From a virus: a stretch of DNA of 41,186 bases. The stretch lies in IMG/VR virus record IMGVR_UViG_3300010885_019614, positions 1-41,186 of that record; one strand, given 5' to 3'. Shown here piece by piece: positions 8,286 to 36,295 of this stretch; position 1 is the first letter of the stretch; the number at the start of each line of letters is the position of its first letter. A program made the position numbers and the translations under genes. The notes under the pieces are model-generated. The model was given only the letters and a program-made list of their open reading frames with translations. It was not told the DNA's origin and did no database searches.

Positions 8286-8310
8286 ATTTGAATTTGTTTA
8301 CTTATACGAT

Positions 8311-8319
8311 AATAAATAT
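8311..8319 (-). promoter_or_regulatory. Candidate late promoter, ATATTTATT
   Basis: Coding-strand ATATTTATT lies 26 nt upstream of the 80-aa gene and just after the U-tract of the preceding terminator. It is a member of the motif family shared by all gaps of 25 bp or more. It would drive the operon for the 80-aa protein, tape measure and baseplate genes. Confidence 0.6.
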
Positions 8320-8330
8320 CTTATAAAAGA

Positions 8331-8373
8331 AAAAGTTAGGATTTGGAGAAATTATCTCTTTATCCTAACTTTT
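8331..8373 (-). terminator. Rho-independent terminator after the gp26-like gene
   Basis: A 12-bp perfect stem pairs AAAAGTTAGGAT (8331-8342) with ATCCTAACTTTT (8362-8373). Inside the loop a second small GAGA/TCTC stem can form. On the minus strand it is followed by TTTTTCTTTTATAA, a good U-tract. The stop codon and last codons of the shifted-frame extension lie inside the hairpin, so termination and the end of translation overlap. Confidence 0.8.
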
Positions 8374-8570
8374 GATTGTCTTTGTGATGATTTTACTTGC
8401 TCATTCTCTTTTTTCTTAGAGTCCACCAGTTTATTATAATAAAATAACCTTAGTCTGGTTGGCATTTGATACAATTCCATCATAGTAAATCCATTACCAT
8501 AATTAACCATATCAAAAATCTGCGAATGAAGGTTTATACTATGATTGGTAGGAAGGCCAAAAAAACCCAA
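8352..8570 (-). CDS. Shifted-frame C-terminal extension of the gp26-like protein
   Basis: An open frame that overlaps the end of the 252-aa gene by 32 nt in the +1 frame and has no credible start. Its first possible initiator is TTG with a GGAG directly abutting it, an in-frame TAG lies two codons upstream, and the first ATG is about 20 codons in. The peptide looks genuine: LHSQIFDMVNYGNGFTMMELYQMPTRLRLFYYNKLVD, then a basic tail, ends in a form I associate with tail chaperone extensions of T4-like phages (from memory). A shift at the T7 run would give a fusion of about 314 aa (246 + 68). It sits two genes upstream of the tape measure, the usual place for G/GT-type pairs. Confidence 0.6.
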   Translation of the reverse strand: MGFFGLPTNHSINLHSQIFDMVNYGNGFTMMELYQMPTRLRLFYYNKLVDSKKKENEQVKSSQRQSKVRIKR

Positions 8571-9297
8571 CTCCTAATGCAATAGGTACCTCCTCCACCT
8601 CACCATCTTCGTGAGTATATTCAAATTTCATATTCATATCAGGTGACATACTCTTAATATGCTCTCTTAATGCTCTACTATCTTTAGCTAACATATTGTT
8701 TACAAATTTGTTAATAGTTGCTAAATCATTCTTACCATCAACTGATTTAATCATATATCTTAATCTAGTACTAATCTCAGATGATACATCTTTATTTATT
8801 TTTTTAAGAGCTTCTACATCTTTATCAATTAATCTTTCATCACCATGTGTTAATATCTTAAATGTTAATTTAGTACCACTTGGTGTTGTATAATCAAATT
8901 CATTTTTGTTTTTGAATATTGAAAAATCAACTTCTTTAGTTTGGATTGTAGATAAATCAAAATTTACATTAATTGTTTCACCTTTTTTAGATGAAAAGAA
9001 TTGTAAATTATATTCTGCACCATATCCTAATAATCTAGTTGCTAAAAGGATAGCGTTTTTATCACCAATAATAATATCATCCGATTTTATACCATCTACT
9101 ATAATAGATTCAAATAATGTATCAATTGCTAATCCTTTTTTAATAAGATTAGATGAAGAAAGAATATCTTCCTCCTTTGCAGTCATTAATTTAATTCTAA
9201 TTTGCCCAGATGATAATGGATGTTCTGGTGGATATACTTTACCTTGAGATGGAAGGTCTAATACTTCCGTTGGAAAATCATATACTTTGTCTGTCAT
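8539..9297 (-). CDS. T4 gp26-like baseplate/tail assembly protein
   Basis: A 252-aa protein starting MTDKVYDFPTEVLDLPSQGK, with the pattern LPSxG..YP...PL.SG.I.IK.MTAKEED.L, followed by IDTLFESIIVDG, DKNAILLATRLLGYG and a C-terminal GVGFFWPS. This matches the T4 base plate family that includes gp26, which acts in hub assembly. The last motif falls directly on a run of seven T where the overlapping frame begins. It has its own promoter-like GTATTTATA 27 nt upstream and a terminator after the extension, so it is a single-gene unit between tube and tape measure operons. No SD is present. It may act as a tape measure chaperone, with long and short forms made by frameshifting (inference). Confidence 0.75.
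   Translation of the reverse strand: MTDKVYDFPTEVLDLPSQGKVYPPEHPLSSGQIRIKLMTAKEEDILSSSNLIKKGLAIDTLFESIIVDGIKSDDIIIGDKNAILLATRLLGYGAEYNLQFFSSKKGETINVNFDLSTIQTKEVDFSIFKNKNEFDYTTPSGTKLTFKILTHGDERLIDKDVEALKKINKDVSSEISTRLRYMIKSVDGKNDLATINKFVNNMLAKDSRALREHIKSMSPDMNMKFEYTHEDGEVEEVPIALGVGFFWPSYQS
8559..8568 (-). promoter_or_regulatory. Candidate programmed frameshift site (GGG + T7)
   Basis: The coding strand reads GGG TTT TTT TGG in the main frame. The downstream open frame is +1 (equivalently -2). On seven T a Phe-tRNA can move forward one base, or back two, and still pair with TTT. The main-frame stop TAG follows 18 nt after the run. I see no strong downstream hairpin directly after the run. The site is inferred, and a shift slightly further downstream at the Trp-Pro codons is also possible. 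Confidence 0.5.
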
Positions 9298-9323
9298 AAC
9301 TTTACTTGTTTTAAGTTTGTATA

Positions 9324-9332
9324 TATAAATAC
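9324..9332 (-). promoter_or_regulatory. Candidate late promoter, GTATTTATA
   Basis: Coding-strand GTATTTATA, 27 nt upstream of the gp26-like ATG and downstream of the tube terminator. It differs from the consensus ATATTTATA only at the first base. It would drive the single gp26-like transcription unit. Confidence 0.55.
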
Positions 9333-9358
9333 ATAGTTTTTAAAAAATTAGAAAGCAC

Positions 9359-9384
9359 AAAAAAGGGGATATTTTGATATCCCC
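9359..9384 (-). terminator. Rho-independent terminator after the tail tube gene
   Basis: An 8-bp perfect stem (GGGGATAT/ATATCCCC at 9365-9372 and 9377-9384) with a 4-nt loop, followed on the minus strand by six U. It lies 24 bp after the tube stop codon. This is the strongest terminator in the window and fits very high transcription of the tube gene. Confidence 0.9.
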
Positions 9385-9407
9385 TGATTGTTTTTATTAT
9401 TTTTAGA

Positions 9408-9896
9408 TTAGTATTCTAAGATAGCGTAATCATAAGCTAATGTTAAAGTGATAGTTGCTACTTCGTTTGAAGTGAAATCTAAATCACCAAAGTTAGCCTG
9501 AAGAATGAAAGCTCCTTTAAGTTTCCATTGTTCGATTTTATCACCAACCGGTCCTAACATATAGATATCGATATCCTTTTTGTAGAAATCAGCGTATCCA
9601 TCTCTACCAGTAATAGATTCATGTGATAATCTCACCCACTCCATTACCGCTTGTGCTCCAGATGGAACGATTGGGTCATAAAGAGTGATTTCTAAATCTT
9701 GCCACTCACCTTTACCTTTCAACTGTCTTTTAACGTTGATATGGTCTAAGGTTACTTTCTCAAAGTTAATTTGAGGTCTGTTACCAGCTTTTACTAAATA
9801 TGATTGAATACCATCAATTTCCATGATGTATCTGTTCTTCATTTTAGGTTCGAAGTTCGTATAGAACATCTTATCAAATTCTAATATTTCTGCCAT
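9408..9896 (-). CDS. Tail tube protein (T4 gp19-like)
   Basis: A 162-aa protein, matching the T4 tube protein length (163 aa). It opens with FDKMFYTNFEPKMKNRYIMEIDGI, the N-terminus typical of gp19-family tubes (F..KNRF.M.IDGIPSYL.K...RP), and continues with LEITLYDPIVPSGAQAVMEW and WKLKGAFI..ANFGDLD...VATITLTLAYDYA. Hexameric rings of this protein form the inner tube through which DNA passes. It follows the sheath gene, as 18-19 do in T4, and has its own promoter-like ATATTTATT and a strong terminator. The leader has GGAAC 6 nt before the ATG, a weak SD, unusual here. Codon use is less AT-biased than in the baseplate genes, as expected for a very abundant protein. Confidence 0.93.
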   Translation of the reverse strand: MAEILEFDKMFYTNFEPKMKNRYIMEIDGIQSYLVKAGNRPQINFEKVTLDHINVKRQLKGKGEWQDLEITLYDPIVPSGAQAVMEWVRLSHESITGRDGYADFYKKDIDIYMLGPVGDKIEQWKLKGAFILQANFGDLDFTSNEVATITLTLAYDYAILEY

Positions 9897-9919
9897 TTTT
9901 GTTCCGTTTATTTTATATT

Positions 9920-9928
9920 AATAAATAT
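9920..9928 (-). promoter_or_regulatory. Candidate late promoter, ATATTTATT
   Basis: Coding-strand ATATTTATT, 24 nt upstream of the tube ATG in the 52-bp gap after the sheath gene. No terminator hairpin is seen in this gap, so the tube may be made both from its own promoter and by read-through from the sheath transcript. Confidence 0.6.
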
Positions 9929-12225: not shown

Positions 12226-12285
12226 GTTATTTCTCCGATTATTATGTTTTAAAATGCTAATATTGAGTATGTACAATATTACCTA

Positions 12286-12294
12286 TATAAATAT
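12286..12294 (-). promoter_or_regulatory. Candidate late promoter for the sheath gene, ATATTTATA
   Basis: An exact copy of the consensus, 61 nt before the sheath ATG, directly after the terminator of the upstream gene. The leader is longer than at other genes and ends in a GGAG SD, so sheath may have extra translational control. Confidence 0.6.
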
Positions 12295-12300
12295 AAAGAA

Positions 12301-12346
12301 AATGTCCAAAACATAATTTATTTTATTAAACTATACTTTGGACATT
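12301..12346 (-). terminator. Terminator after the 131-aa gene
   Basis: A 10-bp perfect stem, AATGTCCAAA (12301-12310) with TTTGGACATT (12337-12346), and a 26-nt AT-rich loop. On the minus strand TTCTTTATATTT follows. The loop is long, so this is weaker than the tube terminator, but its place just after a stop codon and before a promoter motif supports it. Confidence 0.65.
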
Positions 12347-12369
12347 CAAAATAATATATTTTTGGTATA

Positions 12370-12765
12370 TTATACAGGAGGTGCGTCAGGTATATTACTA
12401 CCAGATGCTTCAGACCAAGGGAAATTTTTAGGACCAACTTCTTGCTTTTCCCATTTATGTGAATCAATGTGTTTATTTAATTGCTCATTTATATGTTGCC
12501 AATAATGAGGATTCGGTGATTCCGAACCACTTACATATGTTTTAACCCAACCCAATATTAAATCTTCAGATAAATCTTTGTAATCGATGAATCCATCTTC
12601 GTTTAAATCAGATATTTCAAATGGAGTTCCTCCAGTAAATGTAGCCACATATCCTTCTTCATCAGTAGCTTCAAGTTTCCATTGTGTACCAACAATAACA
12701 TCTGATTTATCAGATGTATTTTGCTTTCTAAGTCCTGTTAATGACCATTTGTATTCGAATGCCAT
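12370..12765 (-). CDS. Small virion-associated protein with EF-hand-like loop, 131 aa
   Basis: The N-terminus (MAFEYKWSLTGLRKQ...DVIVGTQWKLEATDEEGYVATFTGGTPF) resembles a small protein family common in T4-like marine phages, of the form YxW.I..L......VV....W...G.DE.G..GTF.G.TPF. Residues 53-64, DLNEDGFIDYKD, match a calcium-binding EF-hand loop: D53, N55, D57, G58, I60, D61, D64. After it comes a helix (LSEDLILGWVKTYV) and a proline-rich tail ending DAPPV. Family members often have a helix at this point, so the loop may be a local embellishment. It sits between the giant fiber and the sheath, with its own promoter motif and terminator. Confidence 0.7.
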   Translation of the reverse strand: MAFEYKWSLTGLRKQNTSDKSDVIVGTQWKLEATDEEGYVATFTGGTPFEISDLNEDGFIDYKDLSEDLILGWVKTYVSGSESPNPHYWQHINEQLNKHIDSHKWEKQEVGPKNFPWSEASGSNIPDAPPV

Positions 12766-12780: not shown

Positions 12781-12789
12781 TATAAATAT
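12781..12789 (-). promoter_or_regulatory. Candidate late promoter, ATATTTATA
   Basis: An exact consensus copy filling most of the 25-bp gap between the giant S74 fiber gene and the 131-aa gene, only 16 nt from the ATG. If transcription starts about 6-8 nt downstream, the leader would be very short or nearly absent. Confidence 0.5.
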
Positions 12790-12790: not shown

Positions 12791-15700
12791 TTACTTTTTA
12801 TTTTTCAATTCTTTGATTTCAGCTCTTGCTTCGTCCAATTCTGCTTTTAATTCTTTAACTGCCTCTACCAATAGTGCGGTAATCTTATCGTATTTGATAG
12901 TCTTATACATTGGAGACATTTCAGGAACAAAATCAACCGCATCCATTGCGTTTTTAGAATCTTGATGTGTAAGTTGAGTTTGGTATTCCGTTGTTAATAA
13001 TGGTTCTATTTCTTCAACTTCCTGTGCAATCAATCCAATATCTCTAGTTCCAGCACGCTTACTATTAATGTTTACCTTTTCATTATTCCAATCATAAGTA
13101 ACACCTCTAAGCTTTTGGATTTTTTCTAAAGCGTTAGGAATTGTTTCTATATTTTCTTTAAGTCTAATATCAGAATAGTATGCAATTACGTTACCACTTG
13201 CTCTCAAATCACCACTAATATAGAATCCCCAATCAGTAGTATATGCTCTCCAACCAGCTGCGTATGCTAAATAAACGTTACCATTACAATATGATAAGAA
13301 TGACCAACCATATGAAGGATGCCAGAATCCACAAGGTGCACCAGCACCAGCAGTATGTATCATCAATGCCATACTACCATCAACTCTCCATCCAGAATAT
13401 CCATTATTAGAACCACCCATATACCAAGATGTATAATCTCCAGTATAACGGTCTAAGTATTTAGAACCATCGTATCTATTATACATAGTACCAGAATACA
13501 TTCTATTGTAGAAATATGCAATTGGGTTACCATTCTCACCACTCATGTAAGTGAATGTGTTATCACCAGTTGAGTTATCCATCAATCTCAAATACGAATA
13601 AGTGTTATTGTTATTCGCATCAACTCTCAATGTAATATCATTGAATGAGTTTAATGAAACTGAATCAGCCCAGTTAGCGTTATAATCTTGCGATGCATAT
13701 CCGTGATTATTAAATGTATCATATGTTGCGTTCCAGTCAAATGATACAAATGCCAATCTACTAATATAGGAGCTATATGAACCATAGTTTCCCCAAATAG
13801 AATATTCACTACCTACTCTAAATGAACCTTGTGCTCTAATATATGAATCACAATAAATGTTTTTACCATTATATGTTCTTAACCAAGTAGAATCCTGCAT
13901 AAACCAACCACCACCATAAGATTCATTATACCATCCAGTACCACCATAACTTCTAAACCAGTTATTAGAATATATTGTATTGGCCATCGTTAATGTATTC
14001 ATATAAGATGAACCATTCATATCAATATAATATCCACCATTATCTCTATCTACAATATACGGAACGTATAGAGTATTAGAAATTCTAATATTTTGGTCAC
14101 CAGCACCAACAGACATAATTTCAGAACCGTGATAAGGGTCATTATTATAGAATCTAGTTCCACCATAATCCCATCTACCACCAATTTCAACCCCAGTGTG
14201 CCATCCTAATACTAAACGAGTATGTGTTGAGTAACCATTGTTGTATGGTCCTCTTACAAATATCATATAGTAAGGTTGAGCATCACTTCTAGTACCAGAT
14301 GTAATACCAGTTTGAGAACCTACTGCAGATGGGTCAGTTCCACTATTACCCAAATCAATACTTCTAGTGTTACCAGTTCCACTATTAATTCTGAATGCGA
14401 ATGTTCCACCATAATCATAGTAGTAATCTGAGTTTACAGAACTACGAGCAATTAAAGTACTACCATTATGAACACCATTTGTATAGAAATCACCATAGTT
14501 ATTAATAGATGCCACATTCGTATTGGTACTCATATTTCTGAATACCCAAGCTCTACCAGATGTATCCATTATAAACCAAGTACCATAGTTATCGGATTGA
14601 TAACCATGCGTACCATATCCAATGTTTGCACCATATTTGAATCCCATCCAAGATGTAGTAGTGTTACCAGTACTCCACAATGTAATACCACCATCTCTTG
14701 ATGAGTTATTATTATTAGAGTTGAACCAACCAGAATATCCAACCGTAAGATTGTTTACACTTACAACATCACTACCACCAGCATTAATACCACCATACAA
14801 CCAGTTATATCCTAATGAATAAATACCAGATGGATGATACGATGCGTTACCAGTACCACCGGCGTTTGTATTACCTCTATAATAGTTTGCATACATTCCA
14901 ACCAAGTTAGAAGTACCATCAGGAACTGAATAGTATCCAGTACTAGATGTACCATAAAATGCAGGTGCCTGCATGCTGTCTGCTGAATATTGTCTACCAT
15001 ATGTCCAGAATGAACCATTATAGTGCGATATTATTGCATTTACTTTACTACTACCATTATACCCAACCCAACCTGGCATTGCAGGTCCAGAACCTTGCCC
15101 AACAAATACAGTTTCTGCACCAACCATAGTGTATGCACCATAAGTTTGTCCAGATTGAGAACCTTTGTTGAAATAAAATATACCCCAGCCTCTAGCATTT
15201 TCTTGGAATAACCAGTTATTTGCTTCAGAGTTATCGGATACTAAGAATGTACCACCATCGTTATTTTGTCTAAAGTAAGCTTCAGCTTGTATTAAATATC
15301 CTATTGATGTACCATTGCCATCCCACTTATAATATGCATTATCATAATCATAGAATATAGGTGAACGAGTATCAACATATGAATATAATCGTCTGTCCGA
15401 ATCAATTCTTACAGCGTGCTGTCCGTTTATAGAAGGGAAATCTGATGTATTATTAACATAGAAATCTAACCAACCATTTGTATTAGTTCTACCTGCTACT
15501 ATATAGTTTGCACCATTATTACCTAATTGTAAACCGTACCAATTAAGAGATGCATTATAAATACCAGAGTTATCTACATATCTTGCTCTAAAATGATAAG
15601 ATGAATTTGGAGTAATTAAATCACCACTAGCAACATTACCTCTTGATGTTACAGTAGCTAAAGTTTCAGATGTTGCGTTACCAGTAATTGATGTATTTAA

Positions 15701-22035: not shown

Positions 22036-22371
22036 TTATCCTAATGCGATAGCATATGCTAAAGCTGTATCTAACACACTTACACCTTCTATTGTTACCG
22101 AGCCAGATAATACATTCACCGAGCCAGATAATATATTAGTAGAACCGGTTACATTTAATGGGCCAATTATATTTCCAGAACCAGTAACAATTAAGCTTCC
22201 GCTAACTATTAATCTTTGACCAATTGTTAAATAATCAAAAGATGCTTGCTGAACATCAATAGAACCTTTGAATGAACCTGTAAATGAGCCCGTAAACGAA
22301 CCACTCAATGTAGCATACGCATTAACTGCTTGCGTTATTGAGCCTGAAAAAATGGGACTATTTATTTTCAT
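22036..22371 (-). CDS. Fiber-like beta-repeat protein, 111 aa
   Basis: Made almost wholly of the strand repeats used in the two giant fibers: LSGSFTGSFTGSFKGSI, then LIVSGSLIVTGSGNI, NVTGSTNILSGSVNVLSG. It ends in a short helix (DTALAYAIALG). It looks like a minimal stand-alone fiber segment, either a short fiber/connector or a remnant of a longer fiber gene. It is the first gene after a promoter-like ATATTTATA, 24 nt before its ATG, with a partial SD (CGGAT). It leads the transcript that includes the 2960-aa fiber. Confidence 0.65.
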   Translation of the reverse strand: MKINSPIFSGSITQAVNAYATLSGSFTGSFTGSFKGSIDVQQASFDYLTIGQRLIVSGSLIVTGSGNIIGPLNVTGSTNILSGSVNVLSGSVTIEGVSVLDTALAYAIALG

Positions 22372-22394: not shown

Positions 22395-22403
22395 GTATAA
22401 ATA
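22395..22403 (-). promoter_or_regulatory. Candidate late promoter, ATATTTATA
   Basis: An exact consensus copy, 24 nt before the ATG of the beta-repeat protein, in the 46-bp gap after the chaperone gene. It would drive the two 111-aa proteins and the 2960-aa fiber as one transcript of about 9.6 kb. Confidence 0.6.
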
Positions 22404-22417
22404 TAATAAATTTCCTT

Positions 22418-26700: not shown

Positions 26701-29700
26701 ACCACTTGTACCAGCTGAACCATCAGTACCACTTGAGCCAGATGTTCCAGCCGAACCGTCAGTACCACTACTGCCACTACTTCCAGATGAACCACTACTT
26801 CCAGATGTACCATCAGTACCACTTAATCCAGACGAACCAGATGTTCCCGATGAACCACTTTTACCTGATGTACCAGATGAACCACTACTACCAGATGTTC
26901 CCGATGAACCAGCTTTACCAGATGTTCCAGATGAGCCGCTTGTACCATCCGTACCACTTTTACCTGATGTACCAGATGTTCCACTTAATCCAGACGAACC
27001 AGACGAACCAGATGACCCAGACGAACCAGATGTGCCATCCGTACCACTTTTACCTGATGTACCTGATGTTCCACTACTACCACTACTTCCGCTTGTACCA
27101 GATGTTCCGTCTAAACCAGATGAACCACTACTTCCAGATGTACCATCACTACCAGTAGAACCAGACGAACCACTACTACCAGATGTTCCTGATGTACCAC
27201 TACTTCCAGATGTTCCCGATGAGCCAGCCGAACCAGATGAACCACTTGTACCAGATGTACCAGCCGAACCAGTTGAACCTGATGTACCACTACTTCCAGA
27301 TGTACCACGCGTTCCACTACTTCCAGATGTTCCAGATGACCCAGATGAACCAGCCGAACCTGTTGAACCAGATGTTCCAGATGTTCCAGATGTTCCCGAT
27401 GAACCACTACTTCCAGATGAACCGCTTGTTCCAGATGTTCCAGATGAGCCAGATGTACCAGCTGAACCAGTTGTTCCCGATGAACCACTACTTCCAGATG
27501 TACCACTACTTCCAGATGTACCACTACTTCCAGATGTACCAGATGTTCCTGATTCACCACTTGTACCAGATGAACCAGCCGAACCATCCGTTCCAGATTC
27601 ACCACTACTTCCAGATGTACCAGATGTTCCCGATGTACCAGATGTACCGGATGTTCCACTACTTCCAGATGAACCAGATGAACCACTACTACCGGATGAA
27701 CCATCATATCCCGATGAACCACTACTTCCGCTTGTACCAGATGTTCCCGATGTACCACTTGTACCAGATGTTCCCGATGAGCCGCTTGTGCCAGATGTTC
27801 CAGATGTTCCAGATGAACCGCTACTTCCAGATGTACCAGATGTTCCTGATGTACCACTACTTCCAGCCGAACCCGTAGAACCAGATGTTCCCGATGTACC
27901 AGCAGAACCACTACTTCCAGATGAACCACTTGTTCCACTACTACCACTACTTCCAGATGAACCAGATGTACCAGATGACCCAGATGTACCAGATGTTCCT
28001 GATGTTCCACTACTTCCGCTTGAACCAGATGAACCATCACTACCAGATGAACCGCTTGAACCAGACGAACCCGATGTTCCAGATGTACCAGATGTTCCCG
28101 ATGTACCAGCTGAGCCATCCGTACCACTACTTCCAGATGTACCATCACTACCAGATGTACCACTAGTACCAGATGTACCACCAGAACCATCAGTACCACT
28201 ACTTCCAGATGAACCAGATGTACCAGATGACCCAGATGTTCCCGATGTGCCAGATGTTCCGGATGTACCACTTGCTCCAGCTACGTCTCTAGCTTCTAAT
28301 TGATGAGTTGTTGTATTCCAAGTTAATACATAAGATGATAAAGAGGATGTATATAAATTATTTACATAAACACTACCACTAGCACCAAAACTTCCTGTTA
28401 CAACAAAGTTTGCGAACATAGTACTATCTAAGTACTTATTAATAAATGCTGTTGTGTCTACGTTTGAAGCATTTGCTGCGTAAGCTGCGTAAGATGCTGT
28501 TATAGCATATGATGCACTTAATACACGCATTGAAGCTGTTTGTGAATTTAATACAAAACTAGCCGTATCAACAAAACCACCACCGCCACCGCCATTGGCA
28601 GAGAATGATGCTGATATCGCTTGGTATGCTAAAGATGCTGTACCTACAAACATTGAAGCTGTTTGTGAATTTAATACAAATAATGTTGTATCAATATTTG
28701 CATTTAATGCGTAAGATGCAGTTGCTGCGTAAGATGAGCTTAATACTCTCATCGATGCAGTTTGAGATGATAAAACGTAATTGCCAGGCTGTAATGATGC
28801 TGACAATAATTGTTGTACATTTTCATTTGTTAAACCAAGTAAAGTAGATGCCGTTCCTGCATTTTCAGCATATACTGCGTAAGATGCGGAATTAACAGTT
28901 CCTACTACTCTATTACCTTGTATTGTACCACTAATTACACTACCCCCACTACCAATTACTACTTGTCCACTTTCAGTTCCACTAAATGTAATTTTTATAG
29001 TGTTTAAGTCAATTGATTCAATAGTTGCTGGTAGAATTTGTTGTTGTGAACCAGTTTGATAAACCTGAACAACCGGATATAAAACTCCTAAGTTGTGAAC
29101 AATTGTTAAAATGTTTACATTACTAAATCCAACAGTTTCCACATTTGAATATTCAGGTTGAGGAATATAATATCCCCTAGCTTCATCATATCTTAAAATA
29201 TCATATTCAGCAGATGCGGTTGGCCCAGTTCCTCTAAATGTATATGTGCCATTGAATGAACCAGTAAAATATGGAGAATATATAAATGAACTAGTAATTC
29301 CTTTATCAACATATAAGTTACCGTAAATACTTGCAGATGCGTTTGTAACAAATCCATTATTAGGAGAAACAGATGCTGTAAATGATCCTGATTTTAATAT
29401 TGATGTTTCAAATGCTAAGTTTGCAATATTAATATTTGTCAATCCACTTCCATCTCCTACATATGTAGAACCGGATGCTGCTACAAAATTCCCACCAGTT
29501 ACATAAATACCACCGGTAATTGCTGCAAATATATTTGTTCTAAATCCATCAATAGGTGAAATAGATGCTGTTGCAGAACCAGAAACTAATTTATCTAACT
29601 TAAGGTCTGTTAATGCATTTGCAGGGATGTTAAACAATCCACCACCATCTCCAAAATAAAGAGATGCTGATATTGTTGTATTAATATTCAAACCATTATT

Positions 29701-32700
29701 AGGTGAAATTATTGCTATAGCCGAACCAGAAATAATTTTATTTAATTCAAGATCTTGCAATGCTGCGGCTGGAATGTTAAATAATCCACCACCATCTCCT
29801 ACAAATAAGGATGCGCTTAGTGAACCACTAATTGCCACCGAACCAGTAAATTGAGAACCTACTGCCGAACCAGACGTTGCACCAGTTATAACTATAAATG
29901 TATCACCACTTTGTACAGATGCTGTTGCCGAACCACTAGCGATAAATGGCGCAGATGATGCTTGTACATTGGTTAATTGAGAACCATCTCCTATAAACGT
30001 AAATGCCTTAACACTACCACTTACATCAATAGAACCGGTAAATCTAGAACCAATAGCTGAACCAGTTGCTCCAGTTGTTACTACAAATGTATTACCACTT
30101 GATACCGATGCTGTTGCTGAACCACTTGCTATTAAAGGGGCTGCTGATGCTTGTACGTTAGTAATAAACGTACCATCACCAAATAAATATTGAGTTGCTC
30201 TAATACTTCCACTAACTTCAATTGAACCAGTAAATTGAGAACCTATTTGAGATTGTGTAAATGGAGTTTGTACTCTAAATCCAAAATTAGGACTTACTGA
30301 AGCCGTTACACTACCACTTTCAATTTTTGGAGATGATTGTGCAAATACATTTGTAATATATGTACCATCCCCAATAAGATAATCAGTTGCTCTAATGCTT
30401 CCACTAACTTCTATTGAACCAGTAAATATAGAACCAAGTTGAGAACCAGTTTTTGCTGTTGTTACTATAAATTGGTCCCCGCTTGTTACCGAACCAGTTG
30501 CAGAACCACTACCAATAAATGGAGCTACTATTGCAAGAACATTTGTTAATTGTGAACCATCTCCTACAAAGAATGATGCCGATACACTACCTGTTACATA
30601 AACTGAACCGGTAAATTGAGAACCAGCATCCAATGAATAAACTTTAAATCCGTTATTAGGAGATACAGATGCAGTTACACTACCAGATGCCATCTGATAA
30701 ACATTTTCTGCTAATGCCGATAAAGGAATATCAAATAACCCCCTACCACTACCACTAAATGTTGAACCAGTATTTAAAAATACCCCGCCACCAACTCCAC
30801 CACTTACATATAGTGAACCAGTGAATTGTTGGAAGTTTGTTACATCATTTCCAAATATATTAGAACCAGACGAATAAATTATTGAGGATGAAATTAAATT
30901 AGTAACTATTTGGTTTGCTATAATTTTACCATCAACATATAAATCATTATGTAAATGAGCATCTCCTATAATATCCAATGCTCCAGTTATATTTGTAGAG
31001 CCACTTAAATTAATAGTTCCGTAGCTACCACTATTAAGAGTATCAACATTTACATTACCCAATACATTTAAACCTTGTTGTAATGTGGTTGATGATGATA
31101 CAATTAAACTACCTGTAATTGTTGCGTTTGAATTTACAATAAATCCAATATTAGGGTCTACTGATGCGGTTACTGAACCTGTTGCTATTTGGTAAACATT
31201 TTGTACTAGCGCAGATAATGGAATATCAAATAAATTTGCACCACTACCACTAAATGAACCACTAAATTCGTTTGCTATAACCGAATTAGTTACAGTCAAT
31301 GAATTATCTATATTCACAGAGCCAGATACTCTAATACTTCCAGTAAATTCAGAACCATAATCTACTGATTCTATTCTAAATCCATAATCCGGACTTACAG
31401 AAGCTGTTACTGAACCACTTATTATTTTATTTGGAGAAAATGATAATGCAGATTCTGGAATATCAAATAAAAATCTACCACTACCAGAATAAAAAGACCC
31501 AGATGATATTGAAATACTTCCACTTACATTTATACTACCAGTAAATTGCGAACCACTTTTCAATGATTCCACTTTAAATCCAAATGTAGGTGAAACAGAT
31601 GCCGTTACACTAGCACTAGAAATTCTAGATGCATCTCCGGTAAATGATGAGAACGGAATATCAAATAATCCAGCACCACTACCAGTAAACATTGATGCCG
31701 ACACATTACCTTCAAATTGTGCTTTAGTATTTACCAAAAATCCATTAATCGGAGATATTGATGCCGTTGCAGAACCACTTGCTATACGAATTGCATCTCC
31801 ACTAAATGCAGAGAATGGAATATCAAATAAGTTTGCCCCACTACCACTAAATGTTGAACCAAATGTTATACTTACACTTCCAGTAACATTCACATCTCCA
31901 ATTAATTCAATAGTAGCTGGTATTACCAATTCATCAACAATATTAATTGTACCTACCATCATTGAATGGTATTGGCAAATATAATATAAAGTTGCTGGTG
32001 CGGTATTTGGTACAGTAAATGTTATTGTTCCTACCTGTGTTCCATTTCCAGATACACCCGTATTATATGTACTACCTGTTCCAGTTACAGGTGCAGCTTT
32101 TATGTAAAATGGGTGGCCACTTGCGTTTACGTTAAATGTATAAGTTACTCCTTTTACTAAAGTTATTGTAGGATTTGAACCACTAACTGCACCGGTAAAA
32201 TAATACTCCATAGAAGAGTTATTAGTTACAGCAAATACTTTATTAATATCAGATACATCTACTACATGTCCCGATGATGATACAACTAAACTTCCAGATA
32301 TTTTTGTAAAAGTATTTACTTCGAATCCTTTATTTGGAGAAATAGAAGCTGTTACACTTCCACTTGCTAATCTTAATGCATCCCCAGATAAAGCAGAGAA
32401 TGGAATATTACTCAATCCTTCACCACTACCACTAAAATATCCAGACCCAGATGGTATTGTTACACTACCGGTTATTAAAATAGAACCAGTAAATACAGAC
32501 CCACTATCGGTTGATATTACAATAAATCCAAAATTAGAATTTACTGAAGCTGTTACATTACCACTACCCAATCTAGTAGTTTCTGGTAAATTTGTTAATC
32601 CCGCACCACTACCACTAAATACAGATGCCGATATACCACTTTTAAATAATGCAGGTCCTTCTACAAATAAACTTGAAGTTAATTCAGTTTTAGAACCAGT

Positions 32701-35700
32701 AATAATAACATTACCATAAAACAAAGAACCACTTTCAGAAGCTCTTACTACAAATCCATTTTGTAATGATACAGATGCAGATACACTGCCTGTTGCTATT
32801 AATGTTGGTATTGTTGCTGGGATATTTATTAATCCACTACCATCACCTTTAAATGCCCCACTAAATGAACCAGTATATGATGATGCTGTTACAAATCCTG
32901 CTATTAATTCCGTTTGTATTTTAACAGAACCAGTAAATTGTTGGATATTGGTATTGGTGTTTCCAAATATATTTGAACCGGTTGAATAAATTATCGATGA
33001 TGATATAAATTGAACAGATATTTGTTTAGCGTATATATTATTTTCTACATAAAGATTATTTCCTACATATGCACTATTTACTAAATTTAAATTACTTGCG
33101 GTTACACTACCATTTTCAACAAATAAATTTGTATTAACTTTTAATCCGATATTTGGTATAAATGATGCTGTGAATGAGCCAGATTGTAATACATATGCCG
33201 ATAATGCATTTACATTAGTTAATTGAGAACCATCTCCAATATGCGAACCACTAAATGATTGTCCAAAGAAATTAGAACCACTAAATATTGAACCATATAC
33301 ACTACCACTAAATTGAGAATATTGGCGAGTTATAATTAAAGTACTATCAAAGAAATTAGAGGCAGATGTTACAAGTAATGTACCACTAATAAATCCATTT
33401 CCATATGCACTTAATGAACCACTAATACTAACACTACCACTAAACTGAGAACCACTTGCAGCAGATGTTACGACAAATCCAAAATTAGGACTTGCTGATG
33501 CAGTTACACTACCACTTGCAATTCTAAACACTTCAGTAGATAATGCTGAAAACGGAATATTAAATAACCCTTCTCCAGATCCAGAATAAAAAGAACCACT
33601 ACTTAAAAATACACTACCACTAATTGATAAACTACCAGTAAATCTAGAACCAATTTGAGAACCAGAGAATGGAGTTTTTACTACAAATCCATCATTAGAA
33701 ACAGATGCGGTTACATCACCATTTGCTATTCTTAGAGCTTCCGTTGCTAATGCTGCTAATGGAATATTAAATAAAGATTCACCACTACCACTAAATATAG
33801 ATGCAGATACTGATGATAAAAAATTACTAGAACTAACTACTAATAGAGAGCCAGTTATTCTTGTATTTACATTTATTTCAAATCCTTTATCAGGAGAAAT
33901 TGATGCCGTTGCAGAACCGCTTGAAATTTTTGATATTTCTCCAGATATAGATGCAAATGGTATATTAAATAATCCCTCACCACTACCACTAAAAAATGAA
34001 CCAGAAGATACTTGGATATTACCACTTACAAATAATGAACCCGTAAACTGAGAACCACTACTAATAGATTCTACTCTAAATCCATAATCAGGATTAACAG
34101 ATGCTGTTATACTACCAGTTGCTATTCTAGATACTTCACTACTAAATGCAGATAATGGAATATTAAATAATCCATCACCACTACCACTAAATGAAGATGC
34201 TGATACAGTTGTGTTTACTAATAATCCAGTATCAGGAGATATAGATGCCGTTACACTACCACTTGCTATACGAGGTGTAACATCAGCTCTTACTCCAGTT
34301 AATCCAGAACCATCCCCAATAAAGAAATTAGCAGTTAAGCTACCAGTAATAAATTGAGAACCAGTAAATAAGTTTGAACCAGTTGTTGCAAATGTTGATG
34401 ATTCTCTACCATCAAATAAATTTGCATTTTCAGCTTGAGATGCAGAACCATAAAAATTAAATGCAGTTACACTACCACTTACATTTATTGAACCAGTAAA
34501 TTTAGAACCACTTGCCGTAGATGTTACAATAAATCCTTTATCAGGTGCTACCGAAGCAGTTACACTACCACTTGCTATTAATACAGCGGTTAAAGCTGGT
34601 ATGTTAAATAATTTACTACCATCTCCAACAAAAAATGATGCTGTCACACTACCACTTACACTTATACTTCCACTTACACTTATACTTCCAGTAAATTGAG
34701 AACCACTTACTAATGATTCTACTTTAAATCCATAATCAGGACTTACTGATGCAGTTACATTACCATTTGATATTCTAATTGTATCTCCTGTTAAATTTGC
34801 AAATGGTATATCAAATATATATTTACCACTACCAGAGAAATAAGAGCCGCTACTTAAAAATACACTACCACTAAAAGTAGAACCATTTGCTACCGATGTT
34901 ACTACAAATCCATTATTTGGGTCAACCGATGCAGTTACACTACCACTTGCTATTTTAGTAGCTATTGGTAAATTTATTAATCTACTACCATCCCCTTGAA
35001 AAGAACCAGAGAATGAGCCACTAAATTGTGATGCTATAATTGATTGAGATACATTTAAACTACCACTAATACTTGAATTAACATTTACTTTAAATCCTTC
35101 TGATGGTGAAATAGATGCTGTTGCACTTCCACTAAATATTCTTGTTGAATCTATTGATAAATTTGCAAAAGAAATATTGCTTAAATATCTACCATCTCCA
35201 ACAAGATATGAACCACTTTGTACTAATACACTACCACTAACATTTATACTACCAGTAAATTGAGAACCTTTAATTAATGATTCAACAATAAATCCAGAAT
35301 CAGGACTTACAGATGCGGTTACACTACCACTTGCTATTCTTTTTGAGTCAGGTAAATTAAACAATGATTCACCACTACCACTAAATACTGAAGCGGATAC
35401 AGCTGAATAAAATGTTGCCGAACCAGTAACTATTAAATAATCCGCAATAGTTACTCCAGTATTAACTAATAATCCCTCATTCGGAGATATGGATGCTGTT
35501 GCAGAACCAGAAACAATTCTAGGAGAAGTTGCGGCAGGTACATTAAATAAATTACTACCATCTCCAGTAAATGAACCACTAAAAGATGATGCTGTTACAT
35601 ATCCCGCTATTAATTCCGTTTGTATTTGAACAGAACCAGTAAATTGTTGGATATTAGTATTGGTGTTTCCAAATATATTAGACCCAGACGAAAAAATTAC

Positions 35701-36228
35701 AGACGATGAGATTAAATTAACAATAAGTTGGTCTGCAATTATTGATTGGGATACATAAAGATTTCCTAATATTGTAGTATCAACATTTATTTGCAATCCC
35801 AAATCAGGAGAAATAGATGCGGTTGCACTACCACTAGCAATTCTAGGTGCTACAGTCGATGCAACATTTGTAAGTTGTGAACCATCTCCAATAAAATAAT
35901 TGGCCGTTACACTACCACTTACAAATACACTACCAGTAAATTGAGAACCACTATCTACAGAAACTACCTGAAATCCATATTCAGGAGTTACAGATGCCGT
36001 TATTGAACCAGTTACTAATTTTGTGGATGATGGTAATTGAACAAATCCTCTATTTCCATCGGAATCTGAAACTAATATCGCTGGATTATCATAAAGAGAT
36101 GCGCTGAACGATGGGACTCCAAAATTTGGTTCGGCCTGTGACAAATCCAAAAACTGATATCTGTCAGATGTTACATTTTTTGGGCTTACAACCCTTACCC
36201 TTCCTGTTAATAGATTACTAATTGCCAT
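23734..36228 (-). CDS. Giant tail fiber, 4164 aa, with cupredoxin-like insert and Gly-X-Y shafts
   Basis: Domain order: residues 1-50, an anchor-like start (MAISNLLTGRVRVVSPKNVTS...FLDLSQAEPNFG); about 70-2300, roughly 29 beta modules of the form IASGSVTASVSPDYGFxV...SGSxFTGSIxVSGSV...GSGxGLFNIP; about 1320-1436, a cupredoxin-like insert; about 2310-2650, a receptor-fiber type domain (TIVHNLGVLYPVVQVY...) and ASYA-type repeats; 2651-3277, the first Gly-X-Y block; 3278-3342, a four-Cys domain; 3343-4014, the second Gly-X-Y block with interruptions; 4015-4164, a terminal beta domain (TLALTNGGGYTIAWTSVKWAGG...YYGFLAGK) common at phage fiber ends. Two promoter motifs and a GGAAAG SD precede it. 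It may be the long tail fiber. No S74 chaperone is present. Confidence 0.88.
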   Translation of the reverse strand: MAISNLLTGRVRVVSPKNVTSDRYQFLDLSQAEPNFGVPSFSASLYDNPAILVSDSDGNRGFVQLPSSTKLVTGSITASVTPEYGFQVVSVDSGSQFTGSVFVSGSVTANYFIGDGSQLTNVASTVAPRIASGSATASISPDLGLQINVDTTILGNLYVSQSIIADQLIVNLISSSVIFSSGSNIFGNTNTNIQQFTGSVQIQTELIAGYVTASSFSGSFTGDGSNLFNVPAATSPRIVSGSATASISPNEGLLVNTGVTIADYLIVTGSATFYSAVSASVFSGSGESLFNLPDSKRIASGSVTASVSPDSGFIVESLIKGSQFTGSINVSGSVLVQSGSYLVGDGRYLSNISFANLSIDSTRIFSGSATASISPSEGFKVNVNSSISGSLNVSQSIIASQFSGSFSGSFQGDGSRLINLPIATKIASGSVTASVDPNNGFVVTSVANGSTFSGSVFLSSGSYFSGSGKYIFDIPFANLTGDTIRISNGNVTASVSPDYGFKVESLVSGSQFTGSISVSGSISVSGSVTASFFVGDGSKLFNIPALTAVLIASGSVTASVAPDKGFIVTSTASGSKFTGSINVSGSVTAFNFYGSASQAENANLFDGRESSTFATTGSNLFTGSQFITGSLTANFFIGDGSGLTGVRADVTPRIASGSVTASISPDTGLLVNTTVSASSFSGSGDGLFNIPLSAFSSEVSRIATGSITASVNPDYGFRVESISSGSQFTGSLFVSGNIQVSSGSFFSGSGEGLFNIPFASISGEISKISSGSATASISPDKGFEINVNTRITGSLLVVSSSNFLSSVSASIFSGSGESLFNIPLAALATEALRIANGDVTASVSNDGFVVKTPFSGSQIGSRFTGSLSISGSVFLSSGSFYSGSGEGLFNIPFSALSTEVFRIASGSVTASASPNFGFVVTSAASGSQFSGSVSISGSLSAYGNGFISGTLLVTSASNFFDSTLIITRQYSQFSGSVYGSIFSGSNFFGQSFSGSHIGDGSQLTNVNALSAYVLQSGSFTASFIPNIGLKVNTNLFVENGSVTASNLNLVNSAYVGNNLYVENNIYAKQISVQFISSSIIYSTGSNIFGNTNTNIQQFTGSVKIQTELIAGFVTASSYTGSFSGAFKGDGSGLINIPATIPTLIATGSVSASVSLQNGFVVRASESGSLFYGNVIITGSKTELTSSLFVEGPALFKSGISASVFSGSGAGLTNLPETTRLGSGNVTASVNSNFGFIVISTDSGSVFTGSILITGSVTIPSGSGYFSGSGEGLSNIPFSALSGDALRLASGSVTASISPNKGFEVNTFTKISGSLVVSSSGHVVDVSDINKVFAVTNNSSMEYYFTGAVSGSNPTITLVKGVTYTFNVNASGHPFYIKAAPVTGTGSTYNTGVSGNGTQVGTITFTVPNTAPATLYYICQYHSMMVGTINIVDELVIPATIELIGDVNVTGSVSITFGSTFSGSGANLFDIPFSAFSGDAIRIASGSATASISPINGFLVNTKAQFEGNVSASMFTGSGAGLFDIPFSSFTGDASRISSASVTASVSPTFGFKVESLKSGSQFTGSINVSGSISISSGSFYSGSGRFLFDIPESALSFSPNKIISGSVTASVSPDYGFRIESVDYGSEFTGSIRVSGSVNIDNSLTVTNSVIANEFSGSFSGSGANLFDIPLSALVQNVYQIATGSVTASVDPNIGFIVNSNATITGSLIVSSSTTLQQGLNVLGNVNVDTLNSGSYGTINLSGSTNITGALDIIGDAHLHNDLYVDGKIIANQIVTNLISSSIIYSSGSNIFGNDVTNFQQFTGSLYVSGGVGGGVFLNTGSTFSGSGRGLFDIPLSALAENVYQMASGSVTASVSPNNGFKVYSLDAGSQFTGSVYVTGSVSASFFVGDGSQLTNVLAIVAPFIGSGSATGSVTSGDQFIVTTAKTGSQLGSIFTGSIEVSGSIRATDYLIGDGTYITNVFAQSSPKIESGSVTASVSPNFGFRVQTPFTQSQIGSQFTGSIEVSGSIRATQYLFGDGTFITNVQASAAPLIASGSATASVSSGNTFVVTTGATGSAIGSRFTGSIDVSGSVKAFTFIGDGSQLTNVQASSAPFIASGSATASVQSGDTFIVITGATSGSAVGSQFTGSVAISGSLSASLFVGDGGGLFNIPAAALQDLELNKIISGSAIAIISPNNGLNINTTISASLYFGDGGGLFNIPANALTDLKLDKLVSGSATASISPIDGFRTNIFAAITGGIYVTGGNFVAASGSTYVGDGSGLTNINIANLAFETSILKSGSFTASVSPNNGFVTNASASIYGNLYVDKGITSSFIYSPYFTGSFNGTYTFRGTGPTASAEYDILRYDEARGYYIPQPEYSNVETVGFSNVNILTIVHNLGVLYPVVQVYQTGSQQQILPATIESIDLNTIKITFSGTESGQVVIGSGGSVISGTIQGNRVVGTVNSASYAVYAENAGTASTLLGLTNENVQQLLSASLQPGNYVLSSQTASMRVLSSSYAATASYALNANIDTTLFVLNSQTASMFVGTASLAYQAISASFSANGGGGGGFVDTASFVLNSQTASMRVLSASYAITASYAAYAANASNVDTTAFINKYLDSTMFANFVVTGSFGASGSVYVNNLYTSSLSSYVLTWNTTTHQLEARDVAGASGTSGTSGTSGTSGSSGTSGSSGSSGTDGSGGTSGTSGTSGSDGTSGSSGTDGSAGTSGTSGTSGTSGSSGSSGSSGSDGSSGSSGSSGTSGTSGTSGSSGTSGSSGSSGSSGTSGSSGSSGSAGTSGTSGSTGSAGSSGTSGTSGTSGSSGSSGTSGTSGTSGSSGTSGTSGTSGTSGTSGSSGSSGYDGSSGSSGSSGSSGSSGTSGTSGTSGTSGTSGSSGESGTDGSAGSSGTSGESGTSGTSGSSGTSGSSGTSGSSGSSGTTGSAGTSGSSGTSGTSGSSGSSGSSGTSGTSGTSGSTGSAGSSGSSGTSGSSGTRGTSGSSGTSGSTGSAGTSGTSGSSGSAGSSGTSGSSGTSGTSGSSGSSGSTGSDGTSGSSGSSGLDGTSGTSGSSGSSGTSGTSGKSGTDGTSGSSGSSGSSGSSGLSGTSGTSGKSGTDGTSGSSGTSGKAGSSGTSGSSGSSGTSGKSGSSGTSGSSGLSGTDGTSGSSGSSGSSGSSGTDGSAGTSGSSGTDGSAGTSGSSGTSGSSGSAGSSGSSGTDGSAGTSATSGSSGSSGSSGSDGTSGTSGSSGSSGTDGSAGTSGSSGENGTSGTSGTSGTSGTSGTSGESGTDGSSGSSGISCLTYLLSNEDPDNPAVFDWTRCDFTSGDQITINPGDPNVEICAIGESVVLANPPYGTINLVGACHGTSGVDGLPGYTPEFGVDYFNGTDGSSGSSGLNGLAGTSGTSGTSGSSGSSGSSGTSGTRGTSGSSGTSGSSGLSGTSGSSGTSGTSGISGSAGTSGTSGSSGENGSSGTSGSSGSSGTSGISGTAGSSGTSGSGGKDGTSGSSGADGTSGTSGTSGSSGYSGTDGSAGTSGTSGSSGISGSSGTSGTSGTSGSSGSSGTSGISGAGSTSGTSGTSGTSGQSGSSGTSGTSGESGSAGTSGTSGVSGKDGKDGTFVGSSGSSGTSGTSGSSGTSGTSGSSGSSGTSGISGASTTSGTSGSSGTSGQSGTSGSSGTSGTSGISGTDGTYFGTSGTSGTSGTSGSSGESGSAGTSGTSGTSGASGKDGTYFGSAGTSGTSGTSGTSGESGTSGISGSSGTSGVSGTDGTFFGTSGTSGVSGSSGTSGISGVASTSGSSGTSGTSGASGKDGTFFGSSGTSGVSGSAGTSGTSGISGAGATSGSSGTSGSSGKDGTYFGSSGTSGVSGSSGTSGLSGAGATSGTSGTSGVSGKDGTYFGSSGTSGVSGTSGTSGLSGVTATAGTSGTSGSSGTSGISGLNGTYFGSSGTSGTSGLSGATATAGSSGTSGSSGTSGISGTDGTYFGTSGTSGVSGTSGTSFYGVTSGTSGVSGTSGTSFYGVTSGTRGSAGTSGTSGFLTLTGTTDNGILTLNGAQPNASVEANLTFDGSLLTVAGAVSPTTYRETYSDLGTGGATFSIDLSTANNFKKTVNANGTVTITNPPAGKAFGFTLALTNGGGYTIAWTSVKWAGGAQPTLTTSGTDIIVIYTYDGGSTYYGFLAGKNMI
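24187..26202 (-). repeat. Collagen-like block 2 of the 4164-aa fiber, with periodic interruptions
   Basis: Residues 3343-4014 are mostly G-T-S/G-S-S triplets but carry regular breaks: GTDGTYFG, GKDGTYFG and GKDGTFFG recur about every 35-45 residues, each adding one residue to the triplet phase through an aromatic pair. Near the end SFYGVTSG appears twice. A larger break (GLPGYTPEFGVDYFNG) lies near the start. Segments such as SGAGATSG and SGVTATAG alternate with the breaks, giving a higher-order repeat of about 45 residues at the C-terminal end. Confidence 0.9.
26203..26397 (-). other. Four-Cys beta domain between the two Gly-X-Y blocks
   Basis: Residues 3278-3342 (CLTYLLSNEDPDNP...DWTRCDF...ITINPG...EICAIGES...GTINLVGAC) interrupt the shaft. 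The order C-x-TY..., C-D, a strand with NPG, CA, and a final G-x-C resembles a small domain I have seen in Bacteroidota and phage surface proteins. The four cysteines could make two disulfides after lysis. Function is unknown; a bend, a side knob or a glycan-binding site are possibilities. Confidence 0.65.
26398..28278 (-). repeat. Collagen-like block 1 of the 4164-aa fiber, 209 triplets
   Basis: Residues 2651-3277 form 209 continuous triplets, mainly G-T-S and G-S-S, with occasional GTD, GSD, GKS, GKA, GES and GTR. One glycine is replaced: Ala3203 (GTS-ATS-GSS), from GCT in place of GGT/GGC. No proline is present. The 9-bp units are the same as in the 2960-aa fiber gene. Confidence 0.93.
29300..36030 (-). 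repeat. About 29 beta modules in the N-terminal half of the 4164-aa fiber
   Basis: Counting the strand motif (I/L)xSGSxTASxSPxxGFxV gives about 29 copies over roughly 2,250 residues, averaging 75-80 residues each. Between them recur SGSQFTGSIxVSGSV and SGSGxGLFNIPFSALS or GDGSQLTNV. Three copies are extended by SSSxIxSSGSNIFGNxxTNxQQFTGS. Modules differ mostly by point changes and small indels, as expected for old tandem duplication. The fold is probably a trimeric beta prism or helix. Confidence 0.88.
31921..32275 (-). other. Cupredoxin-like domain inserted in the 4164-aa fiber
   Basis: Residues about 1320-1436 break the beta-module series. The segment is Cys/His/Met-bearing, unlike the rest of the shaft: GVTYTFNVNASGHPFYIK with His1372, and YYICQYHSMMVGTINI with Cys1418, His1421 and Met1424. 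H ... C-x2-H-x2-M is the ligand set and spacing of type-1 copper proteins of the amicyanin kind. Similar C-x2-H-x-x-M domains occur, from memory, in other marine phage structural proteins. Copper binding is predicted, not shown. Confidence 0.7.
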
Positions 36229-36248
36229 GCGTTACTTTCCAGCTTTGT

Positions 36249-36257
36249 TATAAATAT
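36249..36257 (-). promoter_or_regulatory. Candidate late promoter (proximal copy), ATATTTATA
   Basis: An exact consensus copy, 20 nt before the ATG of the 4164-aa fiber. It is the second of two copies spaced 20 bp apart, the only gap with a doubled motif. Confidence 0.6.
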
Positions 36258-36268
36258 AGAGAATCCCT

Positions 36269-36277
36269 TATAAATAT
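36269..36277 (-). promoter_or_regulatory. Candidate late promoter (distal copy), ATATTTATA
   Basis: An exact consensus copy 20 bp upstream of the proximal one. It overlaps one arm of a small hairpin. The doubled motif may give two start sites or a stronger promoter for the largest gene in the window. Confidence 0.55.
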
Positions 36278-36291
36278 CAATCAATGATATT
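36273..36291 (-). terminator. Weak AT-rich hairpin after the 305-aa gene
   Basis: Arms AATATCA (36273-36279) and TGATATT (36285-36291) with a 5-nt loop lie just after the stop of the 305-aa gene. The stem is only 7 bp with one G-C pair and the U-tract is short, so it may terminate poorly or serve as an operator overlapping the promoter copy. Confidence 0.3.
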
Positions 36292-36295
36292 ATTG

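Follow-up and report, generated by a model that had tools for sequence, protein, structure and literature searches.

The virus record IMGVR_UViG_3300010885_019614 of IMG/VR, whose entire 41,186 bp form the window analyzed here, carries a short AT-rich box, ATATTTATA, upstream of its contractile-tail genes. We think it probable that this box is the late promoter of a T4-related phage clade infecting Bacteroidota, and that a phage sigma factor of the gp55 kind reads it. The box lies on the coding strand of every window gap of 25 bp or more, keeps that position and orientation across related contigs, and stands beside a second, host-type promoter class in the genomes of relatives. Relatives encode a protein family with sequence and fold similarity to sigma factors.

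In the mechanism that we propose, many early genes would use host sigmaA through a -33 TTTG and, about 20 bp on, a -7 TATATTTG. Late (virion) operons would use ATATTTATA without a -33 box, often just past the terminator of the preceding operon, with the start codon about 24 nt on and transcription starting a few nucleotides downstream of the box. A phage-encoded, diverged sigma of the gp55 kind, with an extra C-terminal helix-turn-helix-like domain, would bind host core RNA polymerase and read the late box. In the window's clade the C-terminal tail of this sigma would probably anchor it to the sliding clamp of the replication machinery.

The box in the window and its relatives

The pattern TATTTAT[AT] is present on the coding strand in all seven window gaps of at least 25 bp (eight copies, none antisense), and each of these gaps holds the full form [AG]TATTTAT[AT]. 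A preliminary description of this DNA had placed the motif in these seven gaps, with two copies in the last, and had seen none in the ten gaps of 24 bp or less. Our counts agree: five copies of ATATTTATA, two of ATATTTATT and one of GTATTTATA, with 0/10 in the short gaps. Counted by strand, ATATTTATA is found five times in reverse and never in forward orientation. Distances to the ATG, earlier given as 16 to 27 nt and 61 nt at the sheath gene, are 15 to 26 nt and 60 nt when measured from the 8-mer; the earlier figures left out the second copy of the last gap, which lies further upstream, at 40 nt. The sheath gap had been correctly drawn at 12226-12369, because the sheath ATG (MAERIVSPG) is at 12225 and not at the listed TTG start. 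Gap 8286-8351 depends on a 72-aa open reading frame (ORF) with a TTG start; without that ORF the gap measures 253 bp and still contains one copy. The candidate late-promoter boxes are as follows.

8311..8319, minus strand: box ATATTTATT, 25 nt upstream of the small-ORF boundary at 8286; the next gene is 8043-8285 (80 aa)
9324..9332, minus strand: box GTATTTATA, 26 nt from the ATG of the hub gene (8539-9297)
9920..9928, minus strand: box ATATTTATT, 23 nt from the ATG of the tail-tube gene (9408-9896)
12286..12294, minus strand: box ATATTTATA, 60 nt from the sheath ATG (12225)
12781..12789, minus strand: box ATATTTATA, 15 nt from the ATG of the DUF7936 gene (12370-12765)
22396..22404, minus strand: box ATATTTATA, 24 nt from the ATG of 22036-22371, at the head of a run ending in the 2960-aa fibre gene
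36249..36257, minus strand: box ATATTTATA, 20 nt from the ATG of the 4164-aa gene 23734-36228
36269..36277, minus strand: second box ATATTTATA in the same gap, 40 nt from the ATG of 23734-36228

The heptamer TATTTAT is not enriched over the window as a whole (26 found, 31 expected), so the signal is its placement in gaps. Coding sequence (40.5 kb) contains TATTTAT[AT] six times in sense and ten times in antisense. The comparison with shuffled gaps that the preliminary description had proposed gave at most 4 of 7 gaps with the motif in 5,000 dinucleotide shuffles, against 7/7 real gaps in sense and 0/7 in antisense.

To examine conservation, we retrieved 80 loci with the sheath protein, which together with the window were dereplicated to 46 representative contigs. 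Codirectional gaps of at least 25 bp carry the motif in sense in 192 of 214 cases and in antisense in 9 of 214, with 22 gaps lacking a sense copy; the corresponding counts for gaps below 25 bp are 1/169 and 4/169. Motif density in the longer gaps is 8.8/kb in sense and 0.38/kb in antisense, compared with 0.12/kb and 0.15/kb in coding sequence. The densities that the preliminary description had asked to compare, between gaps and coding regions and between the two gap orientations, are thus far from equal. De novo expectation maximization (EM) on 213 upstream regions, the window left out, recovered ATATTTATA at an estimated occupancy of 93%. When all 256 A/T 8-mers were counted in 220 upstream regions (window included), ATATTTAT was present in 167, TATTTATA in 146 and TATAAATA in 5, with a median 8-mer at 6. 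An artefact of AT-richness was rejected on the strand bias, the shuffles, the comparison of all A/T 8-mers and the motif of the related Rhodothermus phage RM378, which has 42.5% GC.

The motif-to-ATG distance has a median of 24 nt (quartiles 22 and 28; 192 sites). Copies 8 to 70 nt before the ATG are found in 180/195 gaps of 40 bp or more, 12/19 gaps of 25 to 39 bp and 4/169 gaps below 25 bp; the motif marks operons rather than single genes. In motif-bearing gaps of at least 80 bp, a terminator-like hairpin precedes the motif in 84 of 104 and follows it in none. Its position, the terminator-like hairpins before it in long gaps and its near absence inside operons indicate that the motif is very probably a promoter.

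The same data bear on a signal acting at the RNA level, such as a leader element for RNA processing, stability or enhanced translation. Such a signal would suit a motif found in AT-rich leaders close to start codons, but operon-internal genes would need it equally and nearly all lack it. The distance to the ATG also reaches 60 nt, and in long gaps the motif lies downstream of terminator-like hairpins. We rejected an RNA-level element on its near absence inside operons and consider it extremely unlikely. Returning to a promoter, no upstream column exceeds 0.46 bit in the 192 late sites, the box's own A excepted. Two results fit this reading less well. Among motif-bearing gaps of 25 to 79 bp, 88 in all, the terminator test gave no positive, and TTG is found at -30 to -18 in 42/192 sites compared with 12/192 in an equal stretch further upstream; a weak upstream (-33) contact is therefore possible in a minority of sites.

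Within the window, a simple terminator test passes in 2 of the 7 gaps, and three terminator-like elements lie near the boxes.

9359..9384, minus strand: terminator-like hairpin and T-run, 3' of the tube gene and upstream of the hub-gene box
12295..12346, minus strand: terminator-like inverted repeat and T-run, immediately upstream of the sheath box
8325..8372, minus strand: inverted repeat (AAAGTTAGG/CCTAACTTT) and T-run, identified by eye, upstream of box 8311-8319; unflagged by the simple test on a shorter stretch

All long non-overlapping genes of the window are on the minus strand in the ORF list. They include a contractile-tail set of baseplate, hub, tail tube, tail sheath, DUF7936 protein and giant fibre genes, among them the following.

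8539-9297, minus strand: baseplate hub gene
9408-9896, minus strand: tail tube gene
ATG at 12225, minus strand: tail sheath gene; the listed ORF begins at a TTG
12370-12765, minus strand: DUF7936 gene

The giant genes encode 2960 and 4164 aa in the window (12791-21673 and 23734-36228) and about 5930 aa in the related contig G002 (6773-24568). Those of the window contain islands of higher GC (0.43-0.47 versus about 0.33) and long antisense open frames.

Two promoter classes and the direction of the box

By tail-tube identity, the nearest named phages are Microcystis phage Mel-JY01 (63%), an uncultured 484-kb phage (52%), Flavobacterium phages of the immuto group (46%) and RM378 (44%). A 252.6-kb contig, G037, belongs to the window's clade, with a sheath 70% identical to the window's and a capsid that shares 78% identity with the one in G002, a contig that also has a close sheath. 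In a capsid tree of 12 rows, the window clade with RM378, immuto and Mel-JY01 is split 100/100 from T4, P-HM2 and HTVC008M; because RM378 and T4 are on long branches, we regard the placement of the clade with RM378 as "Far-T4" as likely on these sequences. From its promoters and named relatives, the clade apparently infects Bacteroidota. A host search for relatives in genome contigs gave one match (56%), in a bacterial metagenome-assembled genome, and indicated no host.

According to the accessible text of a promoter study (PMC6847099), the Bacteroidota -33/-7 promoter is TTTG/TANNTTTG, refined to TAHHTTTG (T-12, A-11, T-8, T-7, T-6, G-5), with the start 4 to 5 nt on; G-5 is nearly invariant, and the -33 motif is weak in Flavobacterium johnsoniae. 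G037 contains two promoter classes. The late class is ATATTTATA with nothing conserved upstream (32 sites in 109 upstream regions), whereas the early class is TTTGG followed by TATATTTG, with 20 bp from TTTG to TATATTTG (13 sites). A strict TTTG-N18..22-TAHHTTTG pattern is found in 12/109 upstream regions in sense and in none in antisense; about half of the G037 gaps belong to neither class. Early-class boxes are found before the genes for primase, helicase, polymerase and clamp, and one stands beside a late box before the single-strand binding protein gene. Immuto and Mel-JY01 likewise have a second class with an upstream box, and no upstream box in the late class.

Virion blocks were delimited manually, with the annotated genes of immuto and Mel-JY01 as the guide for homology. 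Among gap-preceded genes, the late box precedes virion genes more often than others in G037 (15/19 versus 19/91, p 2.6e-6), immuto (19/23 versus 13/60, p 5e-7) and Mel-JY01 (8/16 versus 10/70, p 0.004). Genome-wide, G037 gaps contain it in 35 sense and 4 antisense cases of 101. Several figures qualify a strict division of the two classes. The late box is also found in 19/91 non-virion gaps of G037; early boxes are significantly scarce before virion genes in immuto only (0/23 versus 12/60, p 0.03), with p 0.12 in G037 and p 0.06 in Mel-JY01; and the genome-wide strand bias is moderate in immuto (30 sense, 10 antisense of 79 gaps) and weak in Mel-JY01 (19 sense, 13 antisense of 83 gaps).

The second class of immuto, GTTGC ... 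TTCnTATATTTAGGTATC, has 16 sites at a near-fixed ATG distance (quartiles 33 and 36 nt from the box start). Mel-JY01 (PP395634) has Bacteroidota-like early-type promoters, CTTGC upstream and then TATATTTG. Its named relatives infect Flavobacterium and Rhodothermus, and its host label, Microcystis (a cyanobacterium), may be wrong; the true host is perhaps a bacterium that accompanied Microcystis in culture. In G037, a gene for a UvdE-type UV endonuclease (L400:4051-5004), about 1.9 kb before the candidate sigma gene described below, has a host-type early box upstream.

The late box resembles the host -7 box in the same direction. A-11 and the TTT at -8 to -6 are kept, and leader lengths are of a similar order. 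A plain host sigmaA promoter, with a weak last -7 base and a degenerate -33 element and with timing set by, for example, an activator, would account for these shared bases without any phage sigma; the weak -33 motif of F. johnsoniae itself (PMC6847099) and the TTG in 42 late sites agree with it. Against this, the nearly invariant host G-5 is A here: TAHHTTTG with G-5 is found in 0/7 window gaps, and A replaces G in the EM matrix. T-12 is present in just 56%, no -33 column is conserved, the full bipartite TTTG/TAHHTTTG pattern is present in only 5/220 upstream regions of the window set, and the late box has extra fixed downstream bases (T, then A/T). Moreover, the host-type class with upstream box and G exists alongside in G037, before the replication genes listed above among others. 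We therefore judge a plain sigmaA promoter unlikely, and favor a dedicated late class.

The preliminary description had proposed a late promoter of T4 logic, and the data support this: a single -10-like box, no conserved upstream box, and a place before virion operons. T4 late promoters keep a -10-like box and drop the -35, as outlined in the accessible part of a T4 late-transcription review (PMC2988020). It had also noted that the core is the reverse complement of the T4 motif. In 13 codirectional T4 gaps, TATAAATA is found in sense in 3/13 and TATTTATA in 0/13, so the letters of the late box really are reversed relative to T4; counts from 21 T4 upstream regions that include divergent gaps are mixed (TATAAATA 9, TATTTATA 6) because divergent gaps show the promoters of both neighbors. 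The observation thus holds for the letters but not for the recognition element.

A truly mirrored T4 element could be read on the template strand, as documented for the AR9 non-virion RNA polymerase (nvRNAP) in the accessible text of PMC9209446, or by a phage multisubunit RNA polymerase, and the exact reverse complement of the T4 letters invites such a reading. A simpler reading comes from alignment in the same direction with the Bacteroidota -7 box TAHHTTTG, found alongside the late box in G037, and from a series that TATATTTG, ATATTTATA and TTATTTAAA appear to form, the RM378 box being its third member. On this alignment we rejected the mirrored element, giving it hardly any probability; the reversed letters would be a coincidence of host promoter logic. 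The alternative raised in the same description, a different sigma, fared better; G037 and the wider group encode a very divergent, probable gp55-like sigma.

The RM378 motif is TTATTTAAA, and TATTTAA is found in its codirectional gaps in 12 sense and 2 antisense cases of 33; the bias is smaller when divergent gaps are included (31 sense, 19 antisense of 67 upstream regions). Two observations sit poorly with the wider series: exact TATTTAT[AT] is found in just 1/26 RM378 gaps, and G023, a 197-kb contig of a related phage, has the sigma family but not the late box (in 94 gaps, 11 sense and 15 antisense cases). There, 22/100 upstream regions show the dominant motif, CTTATCTTTA and then GTATAaTAA, and conserved bases lie about 20 bp upstream of it.

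A candidate late sigma factor

The search for a gp55-like gene suggested in the preliminary description succeeded in part: G037 encodes what is very likely a diverged gp55-like sigma, and the window fragment has no sigma gene. The PHROG 234 late-sigma model gave a single weak match in immuto, gp118 (E 0.008), which opened a family that we call A2. Homologues of gp118 are present in Mel-JY01, RM378 (Rm378p020) and many viral contigs, with at least 404 and at least 587 of the 600 stretches examined in two scans. Among the contigs searched, 8 of 14 have a member; that of G037 is at 46919-47638 (E 3.3e-71). At E <=0.1, Pfam Sigma70_r2 matches 6 of 15 A2 members (best 8.8e-5) and the PHROG late sigma matches 4 of 15 (best 8.2e-4). 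An hhalign comparison of A2 with a three-row gp55 alignment gave E 7e-5 and a probability of 63%, with the region-2 parts aligned.

We modeled the whole A2 sigma with AlphaFold2 (mean predicted local distance difference test [pLDDT] score 74.8). In VIA-align, the first row is T4 gp55 in the open complex (7d7c_F; Z 11.0, root-mean-square deviation [rmsd] 6.6, 111 aligned), and the other 49 matches listed are all sigma factors by title and chain. Foldseek against BFVD gave one match (E 7.6e-5), a protein without a name. Taken together, these lines of evidence, each modest alone, suggest that the A2 family is very likely a diverged sigma factor, which is likely the reader of the late box. It had gone unannotated as a sigma in G037, immuto, Mel-JY01 and RM378. 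RM378 has a second, ordinary sigma outside the A2 family, Rm378p144 (L458:28329-28928), which matches Sigma70_r2.

Other results weaken the assignment. The predicted template modeling (pTM) score is 0.42, the leading VIA-align rows are tied (10.7 versus 11.0), and helical folds with Z under about 13 can reflect a common arrangement. Foldseek found no match in the PDB at E <= 0.001 for the sigma model. At E 0.01 the G037 sigma had no Pfam match, and in PHROG it matched only an entry of unknown function. The Sigma70_r2 and PHROG 12791 profiles gave nothing in immuto, Mel-JY01 and the partial contigs G001-G003; T4 gp55 by phmmer gave nothing in 633 proteins (immuto, Mel-JY01, the first 50 kb of RM378 and eight clade loci); A2 had no match below E 0.08 in G001-G003; and a PDB sequence search with A2 returned nothing at E up to 1. 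The window is itself a 41-kb fragment without a sigma gene, an absence that may be expected at this size, and its link to the sigma passes through G037, the sole contig found with both the clade sheath and the sigma. Three earlier sets of sigma-bearing contigs have sheaths, where held, 49-58% identical to the window's. A link of sigma loci to the window clade by shared neighbors was dropped, as these were mainly an endolysin that is likely exchanged.

T4 middle transcription operates by appropriation. By this precedent, the late box could belong to a host sigmaA promoter under the control of a phage activator or the clamp, the sigma-like protein being an anti-sigma or appropriation factor, a role that its strong divergence would permit. 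However, the protein models as a region-2 fold with gp55 heading the matches, and no strongly conserved activator site is visible upstream, where the top column is 0.46 bit beyond the box's own A. We consider this arrangement very unlikely and retain the A2 protein as the candidate late sigma.

Beyond region 2, the A2 family has about 100 residues modeled as four helices (pLDDT 77, pTM 0.66), whose C-terminal end we read, from the model, as helix-turn-helix-like. In T4 the work falls to two proteins, gp55 for region 2 and gp33 as a mimic of region 4; the late-transcription review asks, in its accessible part, why a fused late sigma neither exists nor has been found (PMC2988020). The A2 protein is a plausible candidate for such a fusion, in which the C-terminal domain might stand in for gp33. 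Searched alone, this part matched small folds of helical and helix-turn-helix type. SigR region 4 was among them (Z 5.0, rmsd 3.1, 65 aligned), but unrelated folds scored equally; the fusion is therefore no more than plausible. The C-terminal-domain structure search gave no clear region 4, and gp33 was not among the matches listed.

A gp45-like clamp gene is present in G037 (E 8.3e-13) and G001 (E 1.5e-13); the clamp model found none in Mel-JY01, immuto, RM378, G002 and G003, the last two being partial contigs. The C-termini of the T4 polymerase, gp55 and gp33 are interchangeable clamp-binding motifs, as the same review describes (PMC2988020). In G037, the polymerase ends in KFFSF and the sigma in EDEFFSY, and an FF.[FYL] end with at most one residue after it is found in 2 of 281 predicted proteins, the sigma and PolB only. 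On these ends, the C-terminal tail of the sigma probably serves as its tether to the sliding clamp in the window's clade; the FFSY and FFSF tails also hint at late transcription coupled to replication by way of the clamp. Two points count against the tether: the FF.[FYL] pattern was picked after both G037 ends were known, and the G038 sigma ends in EDYLGYD, a loose likeness, while the tail is absent from the sigmas of Mel-JY01, immuto, G045, G048, G023 and G014. Tethering would therefore be a feature of the window's clade. Downstream of the G037 sigma gene lies a PAS-domain histidine-kinase-like protein (L400:7997-9229), with HATPase_c at E 1.9e-15 and PAS folds, which may be a sensor linked to late transcription.

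Relation to known late-transcription systems

The late system here works like that of T4 but is not a member of it by sequence. Both have an 8-9 bp AT box at the presumed -10 place (relative to the inferred RNA start) before late virion genes, no conserved upstream box, a dedicated sigma region-2 protein and, in G037, a clamp gene. Unlike T4, the box here is TATTTATA; the T4 box TATAAATA, whose consensus we tested, is in just 5/220 upstream regions compared with 146/220, and for this reason we do not count the system as T4-type. The A2 sigma is also about 240 aa with a C-terminal helical domain, whereas T4 gp55 is 185 aa with a separate gp33. RM378 and the Far-T4 contigs share a related capsid, tube and sheath, the same sigma family and a motif with a TATTTA core. 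RM378 differs in that TTATTTAAA lies closer to the start codon (median 13 nt) and in a gene order not common with other Far-T4, as the accessible text of a Far-T4 contig survey notes (PMC4360716).

No published description of the late box was found in the literature on T4-type late, Bacteroidetes-phage, crAss-like, immuto, Immutovirus, RM378/Mel-JY01 and Far-T4 promoters, of which our coverage is partial and no proof of absence. The Far-T4 survey reports, in its accessible text, that T4 core transcription-regulation genes were undetected, and offers two possible explanations, a different mode of transcription or genes missing from partial contigs (PMC4360716). The late box and the A2 sigma are candidates for both halves, a late promoter and a late sigma, in a group seen in marine and freshwater viromes and cultured as immuto and RM378.

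More tentatively, and as less likely than not, we raise the possibility that Far-T4 phages have a fused late sigma, combining a gp55-like region 2 with a gp33/region-4-like domain and clamp-tethered in the window's clade, whose box has drifted with the host -7 box, so that the late promoters of T4 relatives would track the logic of the host primary sigma. The A2 protein would be a natural candidate for the fused late sigma raised in the accessible part of the T4 review (PMC2988020). The promoter pair may also help host assignment: a phage with TTTG/TAHHTTTG early promoters is probably a Bacteroidota phage, whatever its record says.

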